Assembly (NCBI GenBank): GCA_028289585.1
Contig: JANQPI010000010.1
Coordinates: 496,001 to 560,000 of the forward strand
DNA from: Candidatus Zixiibacteriota bacterium
GTDB taxonomy: Bacteria; Zixibacteria; MSB-5A5; GN15; FEB-12
Length of the DNA: 64,000 nucleotides
Direction of reading: 5' to 3'
This document shows, piece by piece, positions 39,049-49,538 of this stretch. The notes below the pieces were generated by a model that was not told the origin of the DNA, did not search any database, and was given only the letters and a program-made list of their open reading frames with translations. Numbering within the stretch: position 1 is the stretch's first letter; each line of letters opens with the position of its first letter. The translations under genes and the position numbers were made by a program.

Positions 39049-39122
39049 TGGGAGATCGTTCAATGGTAGGACACACGGCTCTGGACCGTGGAATCGGGGT
39101 TCGAGTCCCTGTCTCCCAGCCA
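39049..39122 (+). tRNA. tRNA-Gln (anticodon CUG)
   Basis: A complete cloverleaf folds: acceptor TGGGAGA/TCTCCCA with discriminator G and an encoded CCA, anticodon stem CACGG/CCGTG with loop CTCTGGA (anticodon CTG), and T-arm CGGGG TTCGAGT CCCTG. Its 3' end is duplicated at 44032-44063, so it is the integration target of the island to its right and remains intact. Confidence 0.93.
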
Positions 39123-39123
39123 T
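39092..39123 (+). repeat. attL of the tRNA-Gln island
   Basis: The 3' part of tRNA-Gln plus one following base, matching 44032-44063 with a single G/A difference in the T-loop. Confidence 0.8.
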
Positions 39124-39190
39124 TTTTAAGTCCCTCATTGACAATCTTTTAGCTTCTCGGTGTTCTTCGTCTGCGAGCACTGCGGCCGCT

Positions 39191-41242
39191 TTGTGGCCGG
39201 TTGGAGTCGCTCTAACGACAATCTGCAAGCGCGGCAACAGCTATTCCGTTGACTTCTATTTTGAGGGAAAGCGCCGCCGTTTAGCTGTCGGAAAGTCCAA
39301 GAAGGTTGCCGAGAGACTCCTCAAGAAGATCGAAGTGGATATCTCGGAAGGCCGTTTCAAGCTGTCGTCGAGCGAATCCTCAATCGACGCGATCTTCGAG
39401 GCTTACCTGGCACACTCTCGGGCGAACAACGCACCGTCCACGTATCAACGCTATCGAGTCTCACTGGAGCACTTCCAGCGGTTCATCGCCGCTGAGTTCC
39501 CAACCGTGGATAGGCCGTCAAGGGTGACGCCAGTAGTGCTAGACCGTTACAAAGTGTGGCGCCAGGAGGTTGATCCGCGGACCCTGAGTTTGGAAGGTAC
39601 GTCCGCTAAGCCAACTGCCATAAACGCTCGCAGTGTTGGGCCTGGGACTGTAAACGCGGAGCTCAAGTTACTTCGCATGGTGTTCAAGTTCGCGATTGAA
39701 CGTGGACTCGCATCTGGCAATCCATTGGATGGTATCCGCTACCTAAAGGTGTTGAAGAAGTCGGAGCCACGATTTCTCTCGAAGAGTGAGTGTCGAGCTC
39801 TCCTCGATGCCGCTGACGACCACATGAGACCGATTGTGTTCACCCTTTTGAATACGGGTCTTCGACTTGGTGAGTTGATACATCTCGAGTGGGCCGATCT
39901 CGTCTATCGAGGCGAAGTGATTAAGAAGGGTTCGCCCACCACACTCTATCTGTCAGATTCGGCAGCAATTCGGCATACCGCTTCGTTTATCTATATGGAT
40001 ACTGACAGTATTCCGGCTGATAGTCTGGAGTTGTTTGTTCGCGTCTCGCGACTACGTGAGGATGGGGATTATGTTCAGGCGAATGCTGAGCAGAGCTTTG
40101 GGCCGCGCATCATTGGCACGCAAGCATCCGCAAGCATTAGTTACTGCCTAGCATATGACTTGTATACAGGAGACTCCATCCGATTCATCGCCTCTTCAGA
40201 GTACGACGCTTTCAGCGACTCGTATTACTGGTTCGTTGATACGACCTTTCAACCGCATAACGTAAGCTCTGGCTCTTTCACTTTTGATAATGTCTATAAC
40301 AACGATAGAGCAAGATACTTGCGTCTTGACGAACATGCATTCATGCCTCTCTCGCTCACGAGAGATGACACGGTAAGATGGTTGGTACGATTCTCCGGAG
40401 TACACCCAGCGACTGGTCTCTTGGATTCAACTGAGATTGAGATACAAGTTACACAAGCACCAAGGATCGGAAATGGTGGCAACAATCTTGATTACCTATT
40501 CACATCGTGGGGAGATGCGTATGGGTTACCTCCCCAGCTATTGAAAGCCATCGCGAAGAAGGAAAATGACAATTTCGCAACGAACACCTTCCGATATGAG
40601 GATGGGTTGGATGAGCAGACTCTTCAAGACCCTGGTGTGGCTATTGCCAATGGATTTAGAAGAGCATATCTGTTGGCTGATTCCGCACGAACAGGTTCTC
40701 CGAAAGGACTATTGTTGACGAGCGAACTGGTGGACCAGGGCGACAGCGTTGCGGCACTGGATATTGATCCGTACTCACTGCTTAGAAACAACTCCCTTCA
40801 ACTTGTTGATGTACAGGACTTGGATGAAAACGCCAGGATTGATATCCAAGAGTTGAAGTCCCTGAATCCGGGCAAATTCGCAAACATTGGCCCGGGAGAG
40901 TTTACCGCTCAGGTCATTTTGACTTCATCATACGGCCTCATGCAGCCCTTGCAACTGTCTTTGCAAGACTTCGTGAATTTCAAGTTCCGTAATCCTCAGA
41001 CCTTGCTTACCGATGTGAACACGAATGTTGCCTGGTCATCCAAAATGCTTCGCTTCATAGATGCTGGGTTCGTCGATGATCCCGCTGTGAACGGTAAGGT
41101 GTTTGAAGACTATGTATATGAGATCGCGTACAAGTACAATGGAGGCCCCGGTGCAACGCTGATTCAGAGTGGCCCTGCTCATGAATATGCTCTCACTGTC
41201 CTCTCATATATTCGAGATGACGGATTCTGGCCTGGAGAATGA
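39191..41242 (+). CDS. chimeric integrase fragment fused to a lytic transglycosylase-like domain
   Basis: A 683-residue open frame made of two unrelated parts. Residues 1 to about 240 are a tyrosine recombinase: SAM-like N-terminal domain, core-binding region and the first catalytic box LLNTGLRLGELIHLEWADL. The His-x-x-Arg and Tyr boxes are missing, so it should be inactive. Beyond roughly base 39930 the frame becomes part of an extracytoplasmic protein. Its end is SLT-like: a catalytic-Glu-like LLKAIAKKENDNF, SSYGLMQ, NVAWSSKMLR and YKYNGGPG. It probably arose by a deletion or insertion joining two genes. A TTG at 39191 is the apparent start. No signal peptide is present, so export of the SLT half from this frame is unlikely. 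Confidence 0.75.
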   Translation: MWPVGVALTTICKRGNSYSVDFYFEGKRRRLAVGKSKKVAERLLKKIEVDISEGRFKLSSSESSIDAIFEAYLAHSRANNAPSTYQRYRVSLEHFQRFIAAEFPTVDRPSRVTPVVLDRYKVWRQEVDPRTLSLEGTSAKPTAINARSVGPGTVNAELKLLRMVFKFAIERGLASGNPLDGIRYLKVLKKSEPRFLSKSECRALLDAADDHMRPIVFTLLNTGLRLGELIHLEWADLVYRGEVIKKGSPTTLYLSDSAAIRHTASFIYMDTDSIPADSLELFVRVSRLREDGDYVQANAEQSFGPRIIGTQASASISYCLAYDLYTGDSIRFIASSEYDAFSDSYYWFVDTTFQPHNVSSGSFTFDNVYNNDRARYLRLDEHAFMPLSLTRDDTVRWLVRFSGVHPATGLLDSTEIEIQVTQAPRIGNGGNNLDYLFTSWGDAYGLPPQLLKAIAKKENDNFATNTFRYEDGLDEQTLQDPGVAIANGFRRAYLLADSARTGSPKGLLLTSELVDQGDSVAALDIDPYSLLRNNSLQLVDVQDLDENARIDIQELKSLNPGKFANIGPGEFTAQVILTSSYGLMQPLQLSLQDFVNFKFRNPQTLLTDVNTNVAWSSKMLRFIDAGFVDDPAVNGKVFEDYVYEIAYKYNGGPGATLIQSGPAHEYALTVLSYIRDDGFWPGE

Positions 41243-41991
41243 AGAAACGGAGTCTCCGCATGCGCTTACACGTGCTAGTAGTAACGTTGCTGTTTAATTC
41301 GGCAGTTGTCGGTTCGTCGGTTGCCGGCGCTGATGTTGTAGTCGAGGATTTGGCGGACGAAAGTGATCAGGTCTTTGAGTCGTTCGCTACGGATTCTGTT
41401 CATGAAGCTTGTGCTGACTTGATCGATATAGAGCTCGGAATGGAGACTCAACATCCTAATCCTGACGGAGAGCCTAGTTACATTACGTACGAACCCTGGC
41501 TCAAGGACAGCCTAACGGTACGAGTTGGATCTGACTCAATCCTGGTTGTTGTCGTTGGCTGTCCACGAGGTATCCATGCGAATGTCGTGTTGCTGAGCCG
41601 CACGAGTGCTGGGGACCTTCTTCTAGTAGATCGAATCGATTTCCGTCTTCCGGGCATGCGGGCAAGGATCGTGGATAGTACGCTTGACTTGAACGGCGAT
41701 GAGAATCCAGAAATCCAGGTGTACATGGACGGTGGCAATCGCACAGCTCACTGTTCGTTCTTCAGCGTATCGCTTGCTCAACTGACACCGATTCTACTGG
41801 ATGGAGAGTATTCACATTTCGGATTCGGAGGCGACATTGGGATCGTGACTGTTCCATATGATGCTACTCTGGGTTACGGACAGATCAAGCAGGTAGATTT
41901 TGCCGCGTCATATGGGCAGACTGCAGAGATTGCTACGATCTACAGAGTAGTACAGAACCGAGCCACGAGAACTGATGGCGACATCGAGTAA
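41239..41991 (+). CDS. exported protein of unknown function
   Basis: A 250-residue protein with a clear N-terminal signal peptide (basic start KKRSLRMRLH, then a hydrophobic stretch to about residue 30). The family is not recognised. A single DLNGDENPEIQVYM loop resembles an FG-GAP-type calcium loop. Three Cys residues lie in the mature part. The ATG overlaps the stop of the integrase-transglycosylase frame (ATGA), so the two were probably an operon before the fusion. Confidence 0.7.
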   Translation: MKKRSLRMRLHVLVVTLLFNSAVVGSSVAGADVVVEDLADESDQVFESFATDSVHEACADLIDIELGMETQHPNPDGEPSYITYEPWLKDSLTVRVGSDSILVVVVGCPRGIHANVVLLSRTSAGDLLLVDRIDFRLPGMRARIVDSTLDLNGDENPEIQVYMDGGNRTAHCSFFSVSLAQLTPILLDGEYSHFGFGGDIGIVTVPYDATLGYGQIKQVDFAASYGQTAEIATIYRVVQNRATRTDGDIE

Positions 41992-42082
41992 CCGTAGGAG
42001 TAGGATTCTAAAGAATCTCTAAAATCGAGCTTCCTCGTAGCGCTTCCAACTGCACTGAACTTCCTTTAAACTCCACGAGCTT

Positions 42083-42108
42083 GCTCCTTGCAATTCACGG
42101 AGTTATGT
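42083..42108 (+). promoter_or_regulatory. possible promoter overlapping a palindrome
   Basis: A weak -35/-10 pair near TTGCTC and TATGTA, spaced 17, overlaps the perfect inverted repeat GAGTTAT-GT-ATAACTC at 42100-42115. This is an operator-like arrangement ahead of the 54-aa gene. Confidence 0.3.
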
Positions 42109-42231
42109 ATAACTCTATCTGTGGTAGGAGAATGGGGGCATCATATCCTTGCCCCTCTCTGATTCAGTTGTTCATGAAGAACAGAGTTGCTGCGGAATAG
42201 TGTCTAGATATTCACAGGAGGAGGATACCGC

Positions 42232-42396
42232 ATGGCTTACGTCAAAAACGGCGATCGTTGCGCAGATTGCAGCAAGTGCAAAGTATGGTCCACGGACCCA
42301 AAGAAAGCCACATGTCAACTCTATCGCGAAGAAGGTTTTCACCCCGATCGCCCGATTCCTACCAAGTGCAATAACAAAGTGACCCGCCGTTACTGA
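42232..42396 (+). CDS. 54-aa Cys-rich small protein
   Basis: A short frame starting MAYVKNGDRCADCSKC and ending CNNKVTRRY. Five cysteines are present, three of them as CADCSKC, so it is probably a small zinc- or metal-binding protein. A near-perfect Shine-Dalgarno (AGGAGGAGG) ends about six bases before the ATG, which strongly supports translation. It lies alone between the exported protein and the FGE-domain gene of the island. No family is recognised. Confidence 0.7.
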   Translation: MAYVKNGDRCADCSKCKVWSTDPKKATCQLYREEGFHPDRPIPTKCNNKVTRRY

Positions 42397-42545
42397 TGCT
42401 TACAATATCTTGAGCATAGACGGGCGTTATGCTGAATTGTTGCGACTTCTTAACTGTAGTTGGCCTCTATTAACTAGTAGCTGCAACTGCGATCCCGTTG
42501 ACGTCGACTAACAAATCGAATCTGACCACTGCATAATCCAAGGGG

Positions 42546-43742
42546 ATGGCCATGGGAAGCAAGATCGCCATCGATCCTAGCAACATTTTGATCAGCATTT
42601 ATGATATGGTTTCGTACGCCGAACACTTTTCAGAAGAAGAATGTAACATCATTGAAAATACGTTCAGGTCAATGGCCAGATACCAGGATCCGGAGCTTTC
42701 TATGACGTATTTTCACAATTTCCTTCTTGAAGAACATTTCGAGTTGTTGACGTGCCCGAATTGCCATGAAACCTGTCTCTTCAAATGGCTTGCCCTTGGT
42801 TATCACAAACATTCGGTCTGCGGGTACAAATGGATGGAGACGCCATGGAGGACCCTGTGGGAAAACATCAAGCGCTTGTTTGGGCCGACAAAGTTTGAAG
42901 TCAAGGGCATTACAGCTTTGTCGTTATTGGCTCTTCCTTTGCAGTTTATTGTGTATTTCGTGAGAGAAAGATCGAAAGCCCGTGGCGAGATTCGTGGTAC
43001 TGACCAGCTACACAATCACCTGAAGCAAACGAATCAGATTGTCGATATCGGAGCTGGCGCTTCACTCACGCTTGTGATGATCCACCCCGGTACTTTTATG
43101 ATGGGTGGAGAAGAACAGAGGCCAGATGAACAGCTTCCCGCACATCGAGTTTCCTTCGATCGAGGGTTCTGGCTTGGAAAGTATCCAGTGACTCAAACTC
43201 AGTATAGAGCTGTGACGGGATTATGCCCTTCGAAACACGAAGGTGACGATCACCCGGTGGAGAACTTGAGCTGGGAGGAAGCCCAAGCTTTCCTAGACGC
43301 CCTGAACAAACTCGAGGACACATCAGGCGGTGAGTTCCGATTTCCCACTGAAGCTGAATGGGAGTACGCTTGCAGGGCAGGCAACACTGGACGTTACTGC
43401 TTCGGGAACGACGAATCAGCATTGTGCGATTATGCTTGGTTCGGTGAAGGTATCAGAGATGGAAGAACTCATCCAGTCGGCAAGCAAAAGCCAAACGTAT
43501 GGGGTCTTCACGATATGCATGGTAATGTGGGGGAATGGTGTGCTGACGAATGGCACGATAATTACGTGGGGGCTCCGTGCAACGGCAGCGCGCGTCAGGA
43601 CGGTGATGGTGATCGCATAGTCCGTGGCGGGCATTTCCTTAGCTCAGCAGAGAGCTGCCGAAGTGCGGCTCGCGATGGTAGAGAGCCAAATGGACAGTTT
43701 GAGTTTGTGGGGTTTAGAATTGCGCGTACAACAAACAACTAG
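42546..43742 (+). CDS. membrane protein with zinc ribbon and FGE/SUMF1-type domain
   Basis: A 398-residue protein. Residues about 74-100 hold CPNCHETC...VCGYKW, a zinc-ribbon-like element, followed by one membrane helix (about 122-140, ALSLLALPLQFIVYFV). The last 220 residues form a formylglycine-generating-enzyme/sulfatase-modifying-factor domain: MIHPGTFMMGG, FWLGKYPVTQTQYRAVTG, FRFPTEAEWEYACRAG, LHDMHGNVGEWCADEW and IVRGGHF. The catalytic Cys pair of true FGE is not evident, so it is more likely a C-type-lectin-fold binding or accessory domain. It is the last gene of the tRNA-Gln island. Confidence 0.85.
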   Translation: MAMGSKIAIDPSNILISIYDMVSYAEHFSEEECNIIENTFRSMARYQDPELSMTYFHNFLLEEHFELLTCPNCHETCLFKWLALGYHKHSVCGYKWMETPWRTLWENIKRLFGPTKFEVKGITALSLLALPLQFIVYFVRERSKARGEIRGTDQLHNHLKQTNQIVDIGAGASLTLVMIHPGTFMMGGEEQRPDEQLPAHRVSFDRGFWLGKYPVTQTQYRAVTGLCPSKHEGDDHPVENLSWEEAQAFLDALNKLEDTSGGEFRFPTEAEWEYACRAGNTGRYCFGNDESALCDYAWFGEGIRDGRTHPVGKQKPNVWGLHDMHGNVGEWCADEWHDNYVGAPCNGSARQDGDGDRIVRGGHFLSSAESCRSAARDGREPNGQFEFVGFRIARTTNN

Positions 43743-43882
43743 ATGCGCCATTAATCTCGTCGGCAGAATGCGACACTACTTTGTGTGTCTCCGAGCTCCG
43801 ATTGCTAAAAACCACGGAATGGAATAGAGTGCATCATTCACTCTGTTGTGGGTGTTTTCTGCTCGGTAGAAGATGGTCTCAT

Positions 43883-43899
43883 GTGACCATTTTGTGACC
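43883..43899 (+). repeat. GTGACC direct repeat pair near attR
   Basis: GTGACC, five bases, GTGACC. The second copy starts 142 bp before the T-arm GGGG of attR, the same distance as at the other island end (9985-10001). Confidence 0.5.
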
Positions 43900-44031
43900 G
43901 GTAGAGGTCCAAATAGAACAAACTAGATGAGATTTCTACAAAGCTTAGAGAAGATGTAACTCGCTGCCGTAGAGTCGTTTGTAGCCATAAGGCGTTGTCT
44001 GGTAAGGGTCTATGGAAATTCCCCGGAGCGA

Positions 44032-44063
44032 AATCGGGGTTCGAATCCCTGTCTCCCAGCCAT
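44032..44063 (+). repeat. attR of the tRNA-Gln island
   Basis: Matches 31 of 32 bases of the tRNA-Gln 3' end (39092-39123) including the encoded CCA. Upstream sequence does not fold as the rest of a tRNA. Confidence 0.8.
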
Positions 44064-44368: not shown

Positions 44369-47300
44369 ATGGAGAACGAGCGTACCGATCGCCCAACCAA
44401 GTTTGGGTCATATCGGATTACCCAGTGGCACGGTGAGGGTCCGTTAGCCCTTGTTGGGACCGCTCAGCGCGATGGTAACGTATTCTTACTCAAGGCGTTA
44501 CATGAGCAGGCTGCGGGCCTAAGAAAGACGTTTTGGGACCAATCGGAGAGGCTCCAGAGCCGCTTGGATCGCCAGTACCATTGCATCTACCGCCAGACCA
44601 CATCAATTTCCGGCTTCGCCATTCACGTTTATCCCTGGCTCAACCCTCGTAAGTGGCGCCCCCTTAGCGAGTGGTTGACAGGTTCGCAAGCAACCGAGGC
44701 GTTTGCTCAGGCTTGCCTGGCGATAGACCTGATTCATATCTGCGGTCTTGTTCATCGAGATCTGCGGATCGATCATATTCTCCTACACCGCCGCGGCCGT
44801 AGCTTTGCTGTGCGGATCATCGACTTTGACTTCCTCGTCGCCGCCGGTCCAGCAGATCGTCAGACGCTGGCCGGAGCTCGGCATTTTCTGCCGCCGGAAG
44901 CAGTAACCGCAACCGAGTTTGAGCCTTCCTACGATCTCTACACGTTTGCGAAATCAGTACAGGCGTTGGCGCTCGACCTGCCCGAGTCGACCGCAGCGAT
45001 CATACGGGATTGTGCCCGGGAATCGTCATTGGAGCGACCTCAGTCGATGTGGCATGCTCTTCACCGGCACGGTGGTATTGACGAAACGCGATCTCGACAT
45101 CATCTGGAGCGCACGACGTTGGCCCTGGCCCGAACCCAGATCCGATTTCCGGAAATGCAGCGGTCTGAATCTGATCCGCTGGCTGCCCAGTTGGTATTTC
45201 CAACGGCAACAGCTCGCGATGTTGTGGCCGATTGGGTAGCCGCTCGGCCGGCGGTGCGCTACCGTTCGCTGCGGCGAGTTCTCCCCGAAGTACACATCAA
45301 GCGGAGCAGCTTTGCTTTAGCAGTCGTGATTCCTGCGCACGTCCTGGGTCAACTATTGGCGCGATCAGATTCTTCATCTGACAAAATGCGGCAAATCATT
45401 GCCAGTCTGAGTGAGCGATCTGACGGTGACACGTCGAACCTCCTCGCCGATGCCGGCTGGCAGCTGCGTCTTGGTTATCTCAATGAGGGAGAGCGAACGC
45501 TAACCGCAATCGCGGAATCCGAAGACCACCCGGTGTCTCGACGGCTTCATTGCTGGCAACGTGCGGTAACGATTTCACTTCTACGCTTTAACATTGCTGC
45601 GGCCCGTGCCTATCTGGTGAGCGGGCAGACGTTGGCAAACTCAGCTGAGGATACATCGTATCGCCTAGAGTTCCGGCGTCTGGCGGTTTGGGTCGGCGGG
45701 TTAATGGCGAGTCCGGAACGAGCCATCGATACGTTGCGTCGGTTGTTGCGCGAAGCTCGCGCCGAGGGGGACTCCATACTACAGGCGCGTTTACATCACG
45801 ATCTTGGTGTGGCACACGGCCAGCTTGATCGTCATCGCTCAGCCAGTCGGCACTTAGCTCGTGCTCATGCCCTTGCTGTCGAAATCCGACAGAGTGACTG
45901 GTCACCGTTCGGCATTCTTTCCTCAATCGTTCGGTTGGCGTACCAGCGCGGAGATTGCGAACTTGCCGACCGCGTGTTGATGTCTGCACGAAGTGAGAGT
46001 GAGCTTCCGGAGGATGAGCTTCGACGGGGTATGCTCGGTACCTATGAGTCCGCTGTTGCTGCCGATTCCGGAGACTATCAACGGGCCCTCGACGCGAGCG
46101 AGCGATGTCGAGCCAGTTCCGGGCTTGAGACGGCAACCGTTGCTGAACTGATTACGTTGAATAACGATCTGGAGTTGGCCAAGATCCGCCGTCAATCGGA
46201 CCTGGCGCGTTTCTATATGACAATGGCCTTGCGACAACTGCAACTCGACGATGGCGCTGCGATGCGGCCACTTGTGATTCTCAATGCGGCTGAATTGCTG
46301 GTGTCGGTCGACGATAGCGATGGAGCGATCGAACTGCTGGAGTCACTTTCTGATGATGGGTTGTCGCCTGCGTTCCGACTCCGCAAACGATTGATTCATG
46401 TATTGGCGAGTGCCAGCACATCGGTCAGTGCCGACCATGTTCGCGAATTCATCACAATCTACCGCGAAGCACGCCAGCATGCACACTATCGTCTTATGGC
46501 GAGATCGGCGTTCTGGTTGTTGGCTTTGGCTCCGCAGCAGGCTCGAACTGAGATTAGCTTCTCGGATATCGAGAGCATAAGCAGATCCGGAGTGCTTGGA
46601 GCCGCCGTACAGGCGCTCATGGCGGCGGAACCCCGGGTCGGCGTTGCCGCCGTGCGCAAGCTTCGCAAGTCACCTTACCCACTCCACGAAATCGTGCTTC
46701 TCGATAAGGTTGCACACTGGTGTCGCGATAGTGAACAGCTGATTCTCTCTCGCAAGTATCACTCGCTAGCCCGGCAATCGGCGAACCGGTGGTCAGCTTC
46801 AGGAATTCCTACCTTTGGACTGTTAACGGAGGGCAAAGATGATGAGTCGCCGATTGAGGCAAGGCTGTCGCTAACGCTTCTTCGTGGTGTTCGGCGAATC
46901 ATGGATTCAGAGAACAATGAAGAGGCGGTACTGCGCGGCCTTCTTCAGCTTGCTCTTTCGGTCAGTGGTGCTGAACGCGTGGCATTGTTTAGCGTCAACA
47001 CCGACAACGTCCTCTCATTGCGTCTATCGCTGAACCTGCTTGATCCCGACAGTATTGGTGAAGATCTTGTGAGTTCGGGCACGGCCCATTACGCCCTGCG
47101 CGATGATCGTGAACTGCTCATCGATAATGCCCAAGCTGATCCTCGCACCGCCTCGCTCACCAGTGTCCTGACCGAAAACATTCAATCGATTCTGTGCCTG
47201 CCAATCACCGTCCAGCGGCAGCGTCGGCATGTCTTGTACCTTGATCATCACGATCTACCAAAGCGATTCGACGAACCCGATATCGAACGGGTCAGGGAGC

Positions 47301-48298
47301 TCGCCCATATGGCCGGCTCGTTGCTATCGCGAAGCCACGTCCTGCCGCCCGAGGAGCCTTCACGCGACTTCGATGCTACAGGCATTATCACACGAAATGC
47401 TGACCTCCAGGAGCAATTACGCCTGCTCACCAAGATTGCTCCCACCAACCATACGGTGCTTGTCGTTGGCGAGTCGGGAACCGGTAAAGAGTTGTTTGCC
47501 CGGTTCATCCACGAACACTCAGAACGGGCTGATCGCGACCTGATTGTTATCAATTGTGCAACGCTTACCGAGTCGTTGGCGGATGCCGAACTTTTCGGGA
47601 TCCGCAAGAACGTTGCATCCGGAGTAGACGCTCGTCCGGGGGCATTCGAGGTTGCATCCGGAAGCACACTTTTCCTCGATGAGATTGGTGACATGCCGAC
47701 CGTACTGTTGCCGAAGCTCCTTCGGGTCTTGGAAGAGAAGACGGTCCGGCCGATTGGTTCGCACCTGGAGATTCCGGTTGATACGCGCATTATTGCCGCG
47801 ACCAACCGTTCTCTTCATGAACTGCAGCAGGGTAAGGATTTCCGCGGTGACGTTTTTTATCGACTCACCGATCACATCGTTAAGCTCTTTCCCCTGCGCG
47901 AACGAGTCGAGGATATCCCGGTGTTAGCCGAATACTTCCTGCGTAAGGCGACCGGTGATGAGTCGCGAAAGTTCGCGAGCGACGCGCTCGATCGGTTGGT
48001 GACCCATCCTTGGCCGGGGAATGTACGTGAGCTCAAGTCGGTAGTCCGACGAGCCGTCCTGTTTTCTGGCAGTCAAATCATCCATGCGGTTGATCTTAAG
48101 TTCTCCGACGATGAGACGACAGGGGGGAGTAGTGCCCAGATTCAACACATGACCGATGACCAACGACGAGCTTTTCTGACCAAACGCCTTATCGCGCTGC
48201 GCGGTAACGTTGCTGAACTCGCACGAGAGATTGATTACCCGTATTCGCGACTGCGTCGAATGCTCATCCGATTGGAGATTCCTTACCGAAGGTTTTAA
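44369..48298 (+). CDS. pseudokinase-TPR-GAF-AAA+ (sigma-54 activator-like) regulator
   Basis: A 1309-residue multidomain regulator. Residues 1-240 are kinase-like but look inactive: HRDLRIDHILL replaces HRDLKxxN and DFD replaces DFG. A long TPR-like helical region (about 330-830) and a GAF domain (about 850-1000) follow. The AAA+ domain has Walker A GESGTGKE near 1035, LFLDEIGDMP and the VFYRLTD/PWPGNVREL sensor segments. The C-terminus is a Fis-like helix-turn-helix. Where sigma-54 activators carry GAFTGA this protein has ELFGIRKNVASGVDARPGAF, so the sigma-54 contact loop is not recognisable. The start could be the TTG at 44366 or the ATG at 44369. A sigma-54-like site lies just downstream. 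Confidence 0.85.
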   Translation: MENERTDRPTKFGSYRITQWHGEGPLALVGTAQRDGNVFLLKALHEQAAGLRKTFWDQSERLQSRLDRQYHCIYRQTTSISGFAIHVYPWLNPRKWRPLSEWLTGSQATEAFAQACLAIDLIHICGLVHRDLRIDHILLHRRGRSFAVRIIDFDFLVAAGPADRQTLAGARHFLPPEAVTATEFEPSYDLYTFAKSVQALALDLPESTAAIIRDCARESSLERPQSMWHALHRHGGIDETRSRHHLERTTLALARTQIRFPEMQRSESDPLAAQLVFPTATARDVVADWVAARPAVRYRSLRRVLPEVHIKRSSFALAVVIPAHVLGQLLARSDSSSDKMRQIIASLSERSDGDTSNLLADAGWQLRLGYLNEGERTLTAIAESEDHPVSRRLHCWQRAVTISLLRFNIAAARAYLVSGQTLANSAEDTSYRLEFRRLAVWVGGLMASPERAIDTLRRLLREARAEGDSILQARLHHDLGVAHGQLDRHRSASRHLARAHALAVEIRQSDWSPFGILSSIVRLAYQRGDCELADRVLMSARSESELPEDELRRGMLGTYESAVAADSGDYQRALDASERCRASSGLETATVAELITLNNDLELAKIRRQSDLARFYMTMALRQLQLDDGAAMRPLVILNAAELLVSVDDSDGAIELLESLSDDGLSPAFRLRKRLIHVLASASTSVSADHVREFITIYREARQHAHYRLMARSAFWLLALAPQQARTEISFSDIESISRSGVLGAAVQALMAAEPRVGVAAVRKLRKSPYPLHEIVLLDKVAHWCRDSEQLILSRKYHSLARQSANRWSASGIPTFGLLTEGKDDESPIEARLSLTLLRGVRRIMDSENNEEAVLRGLLQLALSVSGAERVALFSVNTDNVLSLRLSLNLLDPDSIGEDLVSSGTAHYALRDDRELLIDNAQADPRTASLTSVLTENIQSILCLPITVQRQRRHVLYLDHHDLPKRFDEPDIERVRELAHMAGSLLSRSHVLPPEEPSRDFDATGIITRNADLQEQLRLLTKIAPTNHTVLVVGESGTGKELFARFIHEHSERADRDLIVINCATLTESLADAELFGIRKNVASGVDARPGAFEVASGSTLFLDEIGDMPTVLLPKLLRVLEEKTVRPIGSHLEIPVDTRIIAATNRSLHELQQGKDFRGDVFYRLTDHIVKLFPLRERVEDIPVLAEYFLRKATGDESRKFASDALDRLVTHPWPGNVRELKSVVRRAVLFSGSQIIHAVDLKFSDDETTGGSSAQIQHMTDDQRRAFLTKRLIALRGNVAELAREIDYPYSRLRRMLIRLEIPYRRF

Positions 48299-48484
48299 CG
48301 ATTTTTGCAATTGTGTTAGGACTGTAAAAAGGGAAGAGGCGTACAGTGACAACTCAGTCGGCGAGTTGAGGAAGAACATGGCTGTCATATCTGTCATTCT
48401 GCGCATCACGGATCGAAAACTCCGTGTTGGCAGCGAGTTGTTGCGAGACATAGTGTTATGTGATTTTACGGACTTGTTCTCAGG

Positions 48485-48500
48485 TGGCACGGAAATTGAC
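48485..48500 (+). promoter_or_regulatory. sigma-54-like promoter of the small exported protein gene
   Basis: TGGCACG-GAAA-TTGAC matches the -24/-12 consensus (TGGCACG-N4-TTGC) at every consensus position except GA for GC at -12. It lies about 50 bases before the ATG at 48550 and directly follows a sigma-54-activator-like gene. Confidence 0.5.
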
Positions 48501-48549
48501 CGTGTGAACTCCGTTGCGTCCACGTCGACGACTACAGGAGGTCACACAA

Positions 48550-48801
48550 ATGACAAAGGCAACATGGTACCGTACAACCCTCGCTTCGTTGTTCCTTTCC
48601 GGGGCACTGTTGCTGCCGACTTCGTCTTACGGTGAAGGTGGTGGCCCGCCGCTTCCCCCCCCGCCCGGAGACACGTCCGGAAACGGAGCCGTTGCGCTCA
48701 CGAACCAAGGAACGATTACCGATTCAGCTATGGATGAAACGGATGATGGGGGCATGCTTCTCTCGCTCATCCGTATGTGGCTTATGATCAACGTTCGGTA
48801 G
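48550..48801 (+). CDS. small exported protein
   Basis: An 83-residue protein with a signal peptide (TKATWYRTT then a hydrophobic core, probable cleavage after SSYG). The mature part of about 55 residues begins Gly/Pro-rich (EGGGPPLPPPPGD), has an acidic middle (DETDDGG) and a hydrophobic-amphipathic end (GGMLLSLIRMWLMINVR). AGGAGGT stands about six bases before the ATG. No family is recognised. It sits behind a sigma-54-like promoter and eight bases before an HTH regulator gene, which suggests a regulated secreted peptide. Confidence 0.7.
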   Translation: MTKATWYRTTLASLFLSGALLLPTSSYGEGGGPPLPPPPGDTSGNGAVALTNQGTITDSAMDETDDGGMLLSLIRMWLMINVR

Positions 48802-48809
48802 GAGATCTG

Positions 48810-49538
48810 ATGAACAGTACGCGAAGTGTGATCGACAACGTTCTCCGGATCATCAACTTGCTTCAGTTTCGCTCGTTCGTGAAACTGGACGACATTGTCG
48901 ATGCCTGCGGCATACACCCGCGTACGGCGTATCGGTATCTCAATAGCCTGAGTGAAGCCAACCTTGCGATCGAGTACGATCGCAAGGTTGGTGGCTATCG
49001 ACTCGCGAGTCAAACGCGGTATCGCTTCGACGGCATGGCCTATACCGATGCCCTGGTGCTCGACAGTCTCCTCTCCCAATGGACCGCCGGGGCCGATTCA
49101 GAACGAGATCGCGATTTGCTTGAGATCATTGGCCGGGTGCGCACCTGCCTTCCGGGGCACGAGTCGACCGAGACCGCGACGAAAGCAGAAACGAACATTG
49201 ATCAGGTCTCACCGGCTCGCTTGTCGACGCTCATGCAGCTTGTCCTCGTCTCTCTCATGGAGCAAGCCGCGCGGATCGAGTATCTGCACGAAGGCCAAAT
49301 CGTTTCGATCCGTCTGGCACGACCGCGGCTACAGATCCGGGGACGCTGCGAACTTGTTGATGCCGCCGCCGTCGAAGATGCCGGTATCGCAGTCGGAGAT
49401 ATCATCAGCTGTCAGGCGGTCGCACCAGATGCTGCGGATCGTCGACCGGTTACCGCGAAGAGTGTTCGGGAGGCGCTGACGTTCCTCATTGCGTGCGAGA
49501 AACGCCCGATTGATCGCCGACCAACACCCGTGCGGTAG
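48810..49538 (+). CDS. HTH (DeoR/YafY-like) transcriptional regulator
   Basis: A 242-residue protein. The N-terminal winged helix-turn-helix (about residues 10-65: LQFRSFVKLDDIVDACGIHPRTAYRYLNSL then GGYRL) is of the HTH_11/DeoR-like type. The C-terminal 170 residues contain IEYLHEGQIVSIRLARPRL, a layout loosely like WYL-type regulators but without a clear WYL motif. The start has GGAG six bases upstream. It is co-transcribed with the small exported protein gene and may control it or sense a related signal (inference). Confidence 0.75.
   Translation: MNSTRSVIDNVLRIINLLQFRSFVKLDDIVDACGIHPRTAYRYLNSLSEANLAIEYDRKVGGYRLASQTRYRFDGMAYTDALVLDSLLSQWTAGADSERDRDLLEIIGRVRTCLPGHESTETATKAETNIDQVSPARLSTLMQLVLVSLMEQAARIEYLHEGQIVSIRLARPRLQIRGRCELVDAAAVEDAGIAVGDIISCQAVAPDAADRRPVTAKSVREALTFLIACEKRPIDRRPTPVR

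Follow-up and report, generated by a model that had tools for sequence, protein, structure and literature searches.

The window analysed here, a stretch of 64,000 nucleotides from a genome of Candidatus Zixiibacteriota, probably contains, at odds of roughly two in three, a sigma-54 signalling module that is complete in itself, and in which an ordinary sigma-54 is engaged by the phenylalanine-free loop of the activator. A one-component enhancer-binding protein (bEBP) would read signals through its kinase-like domain, TPR region, and GAF domain, its C-terminal HTH would bind two palindromes upstream of the gene of an exported protein, and its ATPase ring would open the sigma-54 promoter of this gene. 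The sigma factor would be engaged by an xVATGV loop, rather than by GAFTGA, which is one residue shorter behind the motif and has an acidic residue in the canonical lysine position. This promoter would drive an operon encoding a small exported protein together with an HTH regulator, and this regulator probably exerts feedback via TTRCCR repeats that lie in the intergenic region of the promoter. The comparative evidence consists of the clade of the variant activators, their loop, the gene order, the promoter element, the palindromes and their spacing, and the repeats, and it gives good support to the clade, to the module, and to the promoter. Judged on the sequences, the observation is real and beyond chance, and is apparent by comparison only.

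Table 1. Features of the module in the window, with positions counted from the first letter of the window.
Feature	Position	Strand	Basis or remark
Variant-loop enhancer-binding protein, 1309 aa	44369..48298	+	ORF, domain matches, alignment
Activator domains, N-terminal part			Kinase-like N-terminus (Pfam match 103-194), TPR-like helical region, GAF 852-983
Activator domains, C-terminal part			AAA+ 1006-1168, AAA lid 1177-1247, C-terminal HTH
L1 loop NVASGV replacing GAFTGA	47609..47626	+	Residues 1081-1086, alignment
Promoter-proximal palindrome, candidate activator site	48434..48458	+	8/10 positions of TAA-N5-TG-N5-CA-N5-TTA
-24/-12 type element TGGCACGGAAATTGAC	48485..48500	+	A in place of C at -12
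83-aa exported protein	48550..48801	+	Signal peptide, Gly/Pro-rich stretch, hydrophobic C-terminal tail
HTH_11-type regulator, 242 aa	48810..49538	+	Domain match

The activator belongs to the sigma-54 enhancer-binding proteins, with a match to PF00158 at E 2.1e-50, and this domain is matched in all 22 family members of the full-length alignment set. Kinase and GAF matches are likewise found in 22 of the 22 members, together with TPR_12 in 21 (the match of the window activator being weak, E 0.0038) and MalT-like TPR in 16. The C-terminal HTH is of the Fis type, as HTH_8 is matched in 20 of the 22 members at E 0.001, a threshold which the window activator does not reach, yet it aligns with the other members in this region. 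The window protein is diverged, with 21–24% identity to the rest of the family. The earlier note called its N-terminal domain a pseudokinase, which is fair for the window member, where HRDLRIDH and DFD are found, with the VAIK lysine and both aspartates present, and histidine in place of the catalytic asparagine, a combination which departs from that of an active Ser/Thr kinase of PF00069 (VAIK Lys, HRD Asp, catalytic Asn, and DFG). Most of the relatives, by contrast, have HCDLKLxN and DLD, and thus retain the catalytic asparagine, but lack the glycine loop. A search of 61 genomes recovered related proteins, mostly of approximately 1400 aa, in the same family and order, while a profile search of 132 genomes of the phylum returned matches of more than 500 bits in 47 genomes (about a third). 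When the GAF–AAA+ part of a relative was compared with plasmids by tblastn, only general bEBP matches were recovered, at less than 60% identity.

The claim that the AAA+ core keeps its ATPase motifs and carries KNVASGVD in the place of GAFTGA was borne out by alignment to ZraR (KGAFTGAD), in which the loop of the window activator lies between an intact Walker A (GESGTGK) and an intact Walker B (LFLDE). The six loop positions of 51 variant AAA+ domains are mostly N/G/K, V/A, A (45 domains, with V in 4 and F in 2), T (47), G (41), and V (50). In 46 canonical domains of this phylum, chosen for a near-GAFTGA loop, the six positions read G-A-F-T-G-A, with F at the third position in 45 and Y in one. 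The aromatic residue is absent from the window protein (NVASGV), and A or V takes its place in 49 of the 51 variants, the phenylalanine being kept by L069 (KAFTDV) and L130 (NAFTGV) alone. The variants also have one residue fewer between the motif and Walker B, and the position of the canonical lysine (42/46) is mostly occupied by E or D (37/51). Basic loop residues of sigma-54 activators have been described, in the part of the source available, as touching the DNA (PMC9770992). In a tree of 97 AAA+ domains, all 51 variants fall into one clade, with a support of 0.77. Three further loci, L144, L147, and L148, proved to be canonical. Among the 13 strongest PF00158 proteins of the window genome, 11 have GAFT or GSFT loops, one is the window activator, and one is a second GAFTGA-less bEBP of this genome, of 465 aa (L014, G000:C20:387746), with the loop DSASGF.

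Downstream of the activator, the expected signal-peptide-bearing protein of 83 residues, preceded by the Shine-Dalgarno sequence AGGAGG, and the HTH regulator behind it were both found, and this order is conserved. Of the 51 variants examined, 50 have enough downstream sequence, and a small exported ORF of 68–105 aa begins 228–366 nt past the activator stop in 47 of these 50 loci; a simple motif identifies an HTH protein behind it in 37 of the 47. No small exported ORF was found downstream in L075, L129, and L137, which were left out of the promoter counts, as was L132, where the contig ends 226 nt past the stop, so that these counts cover the 47 loci with the small ORF. The remaining neighbours vary between genomes, and the activator, the exported protein, and the HTH regulator therefore represent a unit. 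The small proteins have a strongly hydrophobic N-terminal segment in 46 of the 47 loci (that of the window being just under the cut-off), a cleavage-like site in 46, and a hydrophobic C-terminal tail in 42. The single-sequence model of the HTH protein reached a mean pLDDT of 40, and was confident in parts of the HTH only, while a profile search against solved structures gave a best E of 0.12. A WYL-like C-terminus of this protein, suggested by the alignment on sight, was supported by no tool, and was rejected.

Some loci depart from this plan or extend it. In L056 (G019), for example, the gene of the small exported protein is duplicated in tandem ahead of the HTH gene, and in L066 (G040) the module is followed downstream by a row of several ORFs of 39–40 aa, which end in GCCCxxLTxS or similar, and resemble a peptide-precursor family. 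In the window itself, within positions 39049–44063, an integrase-like ORF that has partial integrase matches only lies behind a tRNA-Gln. This region also contains an ORF of the FGE-sulfatase family (42546–43742) and, at 44032–44063, 32 nt that repeat the 3' end of the tRNA (31/32), and it is probably a 4.9-kb integrated element that ends just before the module.

In the intergenic region of the window, TGGCACGGAAATTGA is found at 48485, 186 nt past the activator stop, where a -24/-12 site had been reported some 190 bases beyond it. In the window alone, this match is not significant, with six sites at two or fewer mismatches against 9.5 expected. The earlier note had staked its proposal on the conservation of this site, and the site is conserved, given that the sigma-54-type match exceeds 95% of its own shuffles in 37 of the 47 homologous intergenic regions, with the best match 53–86 nt ahead of the small ORF, and weak scores in four loci of families f18 and f19 (p 0.12–0.77). 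The sigma-54 consensus and the weights of the promoter score are those of general knowledge. As related loci are not independent, a combined p-value was not used. Within the -24 part, GGCA is conserved, and its distance from TTG is fixed, although the conservation of GG and TTG in the anchored composition, which covers the 42 of the 47 loci with p <0.12, is partly by construction. In the window's own genome, TGGCACN5TTG shows no excess (28 matches against 33 in the control), and the genome-wide counts of TGGCACN5TTGCW and TTGAW were left uninterpreted, because the reversed control ignores codon use.

In 33 of the 47 loci, a palindrome of the type TAA-N5-TG-N5-CA-N5-TTA lies ahead of the -24 element, with its end 27–29 nt from the GG (27 nt in the window), and in eight more this distance is off by about one helical turn in either direction, the promoter site having been chosen without the use of the position of the palindrome. 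A second palindrome is found further up, at 94–98 nt in 26 and 105–106 nt in 9 of 44 loci. The linked -24/-12 promoter and upstream sites that characterize a sigma-54 enhancer-binding protein are thus found by comparison. TTRCCR repeats, often at intervals of 8 nt, occur 43 times in the 75 nt that follow the activator, where 4.0 would be expected, and the inverse, YGGYAA, occurs 28 times between the palindromes, against 2.3 expected; the HTH_11 protein probably binds these repeats. In the window, the distal palindrome is absent from its usual place (7 of 10 positions are matched at another), and no TTRCCR repeats are visible in the intergenic sequence. The window's own member is the weakest case of the module.

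The combination of palindrome and promoter extends well beyond the module. In its 28-nt version (palindrome, 28 nt, GGCA-N6-TTG), it was found 325 times in 132 genomes at two or fewer mismatches, against 32 times for the reversed pattern, and it also occurs in genomes that have no variant activator. This amounts to a sigma-54 promoter layout of almost constant spacing that spans the phylum, and that occurs at about ten times the level of the reversed control (L191, L205, L206, and L216, for example). With a variable gap, the matches are densest at 17–18 and 26–30 nt among the 150 listed, and a test for a 10.5-nt period in these gaps was not specific. Pilin-like, flagellar, and exported proteins are among the products of the genes behind the sampled sites, so canonical activators probably read the same type of site.

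Given how common the layout is, even in the absence of a variant activator, another, canonical activator might act at the module promoter. In this case, a GAFTGA protein would open the sigma-54 promoter through the shared palindromes, and the variant protein would be a modulator, by occupying the sites, by forming mixed hexamers, or as a repressor until a signal arrives. This alternative is unlikely. In its favour, phenylalanine-free loops fail in mutagenesis, which found the phenylalanine to be essential (PMC7057263, PMC9770992), and the available text of a review states that every GAFTGA residue matters, the phenylalanine consistently so (PMC7057263). Against it, the paired palindromes at 94–98 or 105–106 nt are typical of the module, with no such spacing peak in 27 general sites, in a comparison in which the score cut-offs differ (7 and 8 of 10). 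The layout is general in the phylum, whereas paired sites at a fixed distance are seen to peak in the module only. In addition, the variant proteins retain the ATPase motifs and the arginine finger, and their gene lies directly upstream in every module locus. The variant protein would be the activator of the adjoining promoter, with sigma-54 as its partner. That it opens this promoter is the simplest reading, although canonical activators may share this type of site.

The gene of the proposed partner is widespread, as rpoN, the absence of which would have spoken against the proposal, is found in 120 of the 132 genomes, including all 78 of good quality, and nearly always in a single copy. The single sigma-54 of the window genome starts with MKLGLSQTLKLQQTLAPQLIQSLQLLQM and carries ARRTVTKYRE, its region I and RpoN box being of the ordinary kind. 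The earlier note had left a choice between an altered sigma-54 contact and a changed polymerase partner, of which the altered contact loop, in a conserved module, has held up, and the changed partner has not, given the sigma-54-type promoter without a downstream -10 and the ordinary features of the sigma factor. It is improbable that the variant protein acts without sigma-54 on a sigma-70 promoter, with TTGA as the -35 box, in the manner of the GAFTGA-less NtrC proteins of Rhodobacter and Caulobacter (PMC10274813, as far as the available text goes). The loss of the phenylalanine and an element that often reads TTGA would fit this, but the conserved GGCA keeps a constant spacing to TTG, and none of the positions 15–59 nt beyond the beginning of the element attains 0.5 bit, so that no -10 element is apparent, and, by comparison only, the variants fall outside the GAFTGA-less regulators of sigma-70 promoters. 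The loops of the known NtrC proteins are also deleted, whereas the variants keep the threonine and the glycine.

The base that follows GG-N8-TTG, which is the C at -12 of the classical consensus, is A in 20, T in 14, C in 10, and G in 3 of the 47 module loci (A 19, T 14, C 8, and G 1 in the 42 better ones), and is C in both of the phenylalanine-keeping members. That the loop and this base coevolved, the phenylalanine-free loop needing A or T, was suggested by the first alignments, but is very improbable, as L138–L141 combine C with the variant loop, and a control on 51 loci around canonical activators of the same phylum, in which 16 sigma-54-type sites precede an ORF, gave C 6, A 5, and T 5, which largely refutes the idea, and marks the loose -12 base as a habit of the lineage, uncoupled from the loop.

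With respect to known systems, the variants resemble NorR, NifA, and PspF (PF00158) in the AAA+ core and lid, the C-terminal Fis-type HTH, the upstream sites with a -24/-12 promoter and, in some cases, the GAF domain. They differ in the kinase-like and TPR regions in front, in the loop without phenylalanine, and in upstream sites that lie close to the promoter at a fixed spacing. GAFTGA is also absent from the NtrC proteins of Rhodobacter and Caulobacter, and from VspR, although the NtrC cases have the loop deleted, whereas the variants carry a substitution in it and are linked to a promoter of the sigma-54 type. The GVATGV loop was found in one paper of the literature searched, in DVUA0100 of Desulfovibrio vulgaris Hildenborough, which has predicted sigma-54 targets (PMC4641369). 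Like the window activator, DVUA0100 is a one-component bEBP with a long N-terminal region of unassigned sensing role, and it is predicted to act on sigma-54 promoters, a likeness taken from its published description. It differs in regulating the genes of type III secretion, and the available part of its description mentions no linked small exported protein or HTH gene. Searches of the literature found neither a kinase-TPR-GAF sigma-54 family nor a peptide-sensing sigma-54 module, and nothing relevant on the spacing of sigma-54 upstream sites.

In RRNPP systems, the gene of a TPR receptor is followed by that of a small exported peptide, a gene layout shared with the module. The likeness rests on gene adjacency, the mature peptide being a feature of RRNPP, whereas the receptor of the module is a sigma-54 AAA+ activator, and its exported protein ends in a hydrophobic tail. 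A peptide-feedback circuit, in which bEBPs with phenylalanine-free loops open sigma-54 promoters, the TPR region senses the exported protein that it has itself induced, and the HTH protein is a second arm, is a doubtful proposition, although, if true, the aromatic grip would be shown to be non-essential.

In current models, the phenylalanine of GAFTGA tracks the conserved leucines of sigma-54 region I (PMC9770992, in the part available), and its mutation breaks the activators. A clade that lacks this residue, retains the ATPase motifs, and is linked, in many genomes, to conserved promoters of the sigma-54 type makes the natural dispensability of the aromatic residue testable. The near-fixed spacing of palindrome and promoter across the phylum is a separate, second lead. 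Screens that accept GAFTGA proteins alone as sigma-54 activators, such as a survey which, in its available text, retained only these proteins (PMC12316311), miss a conserved class.
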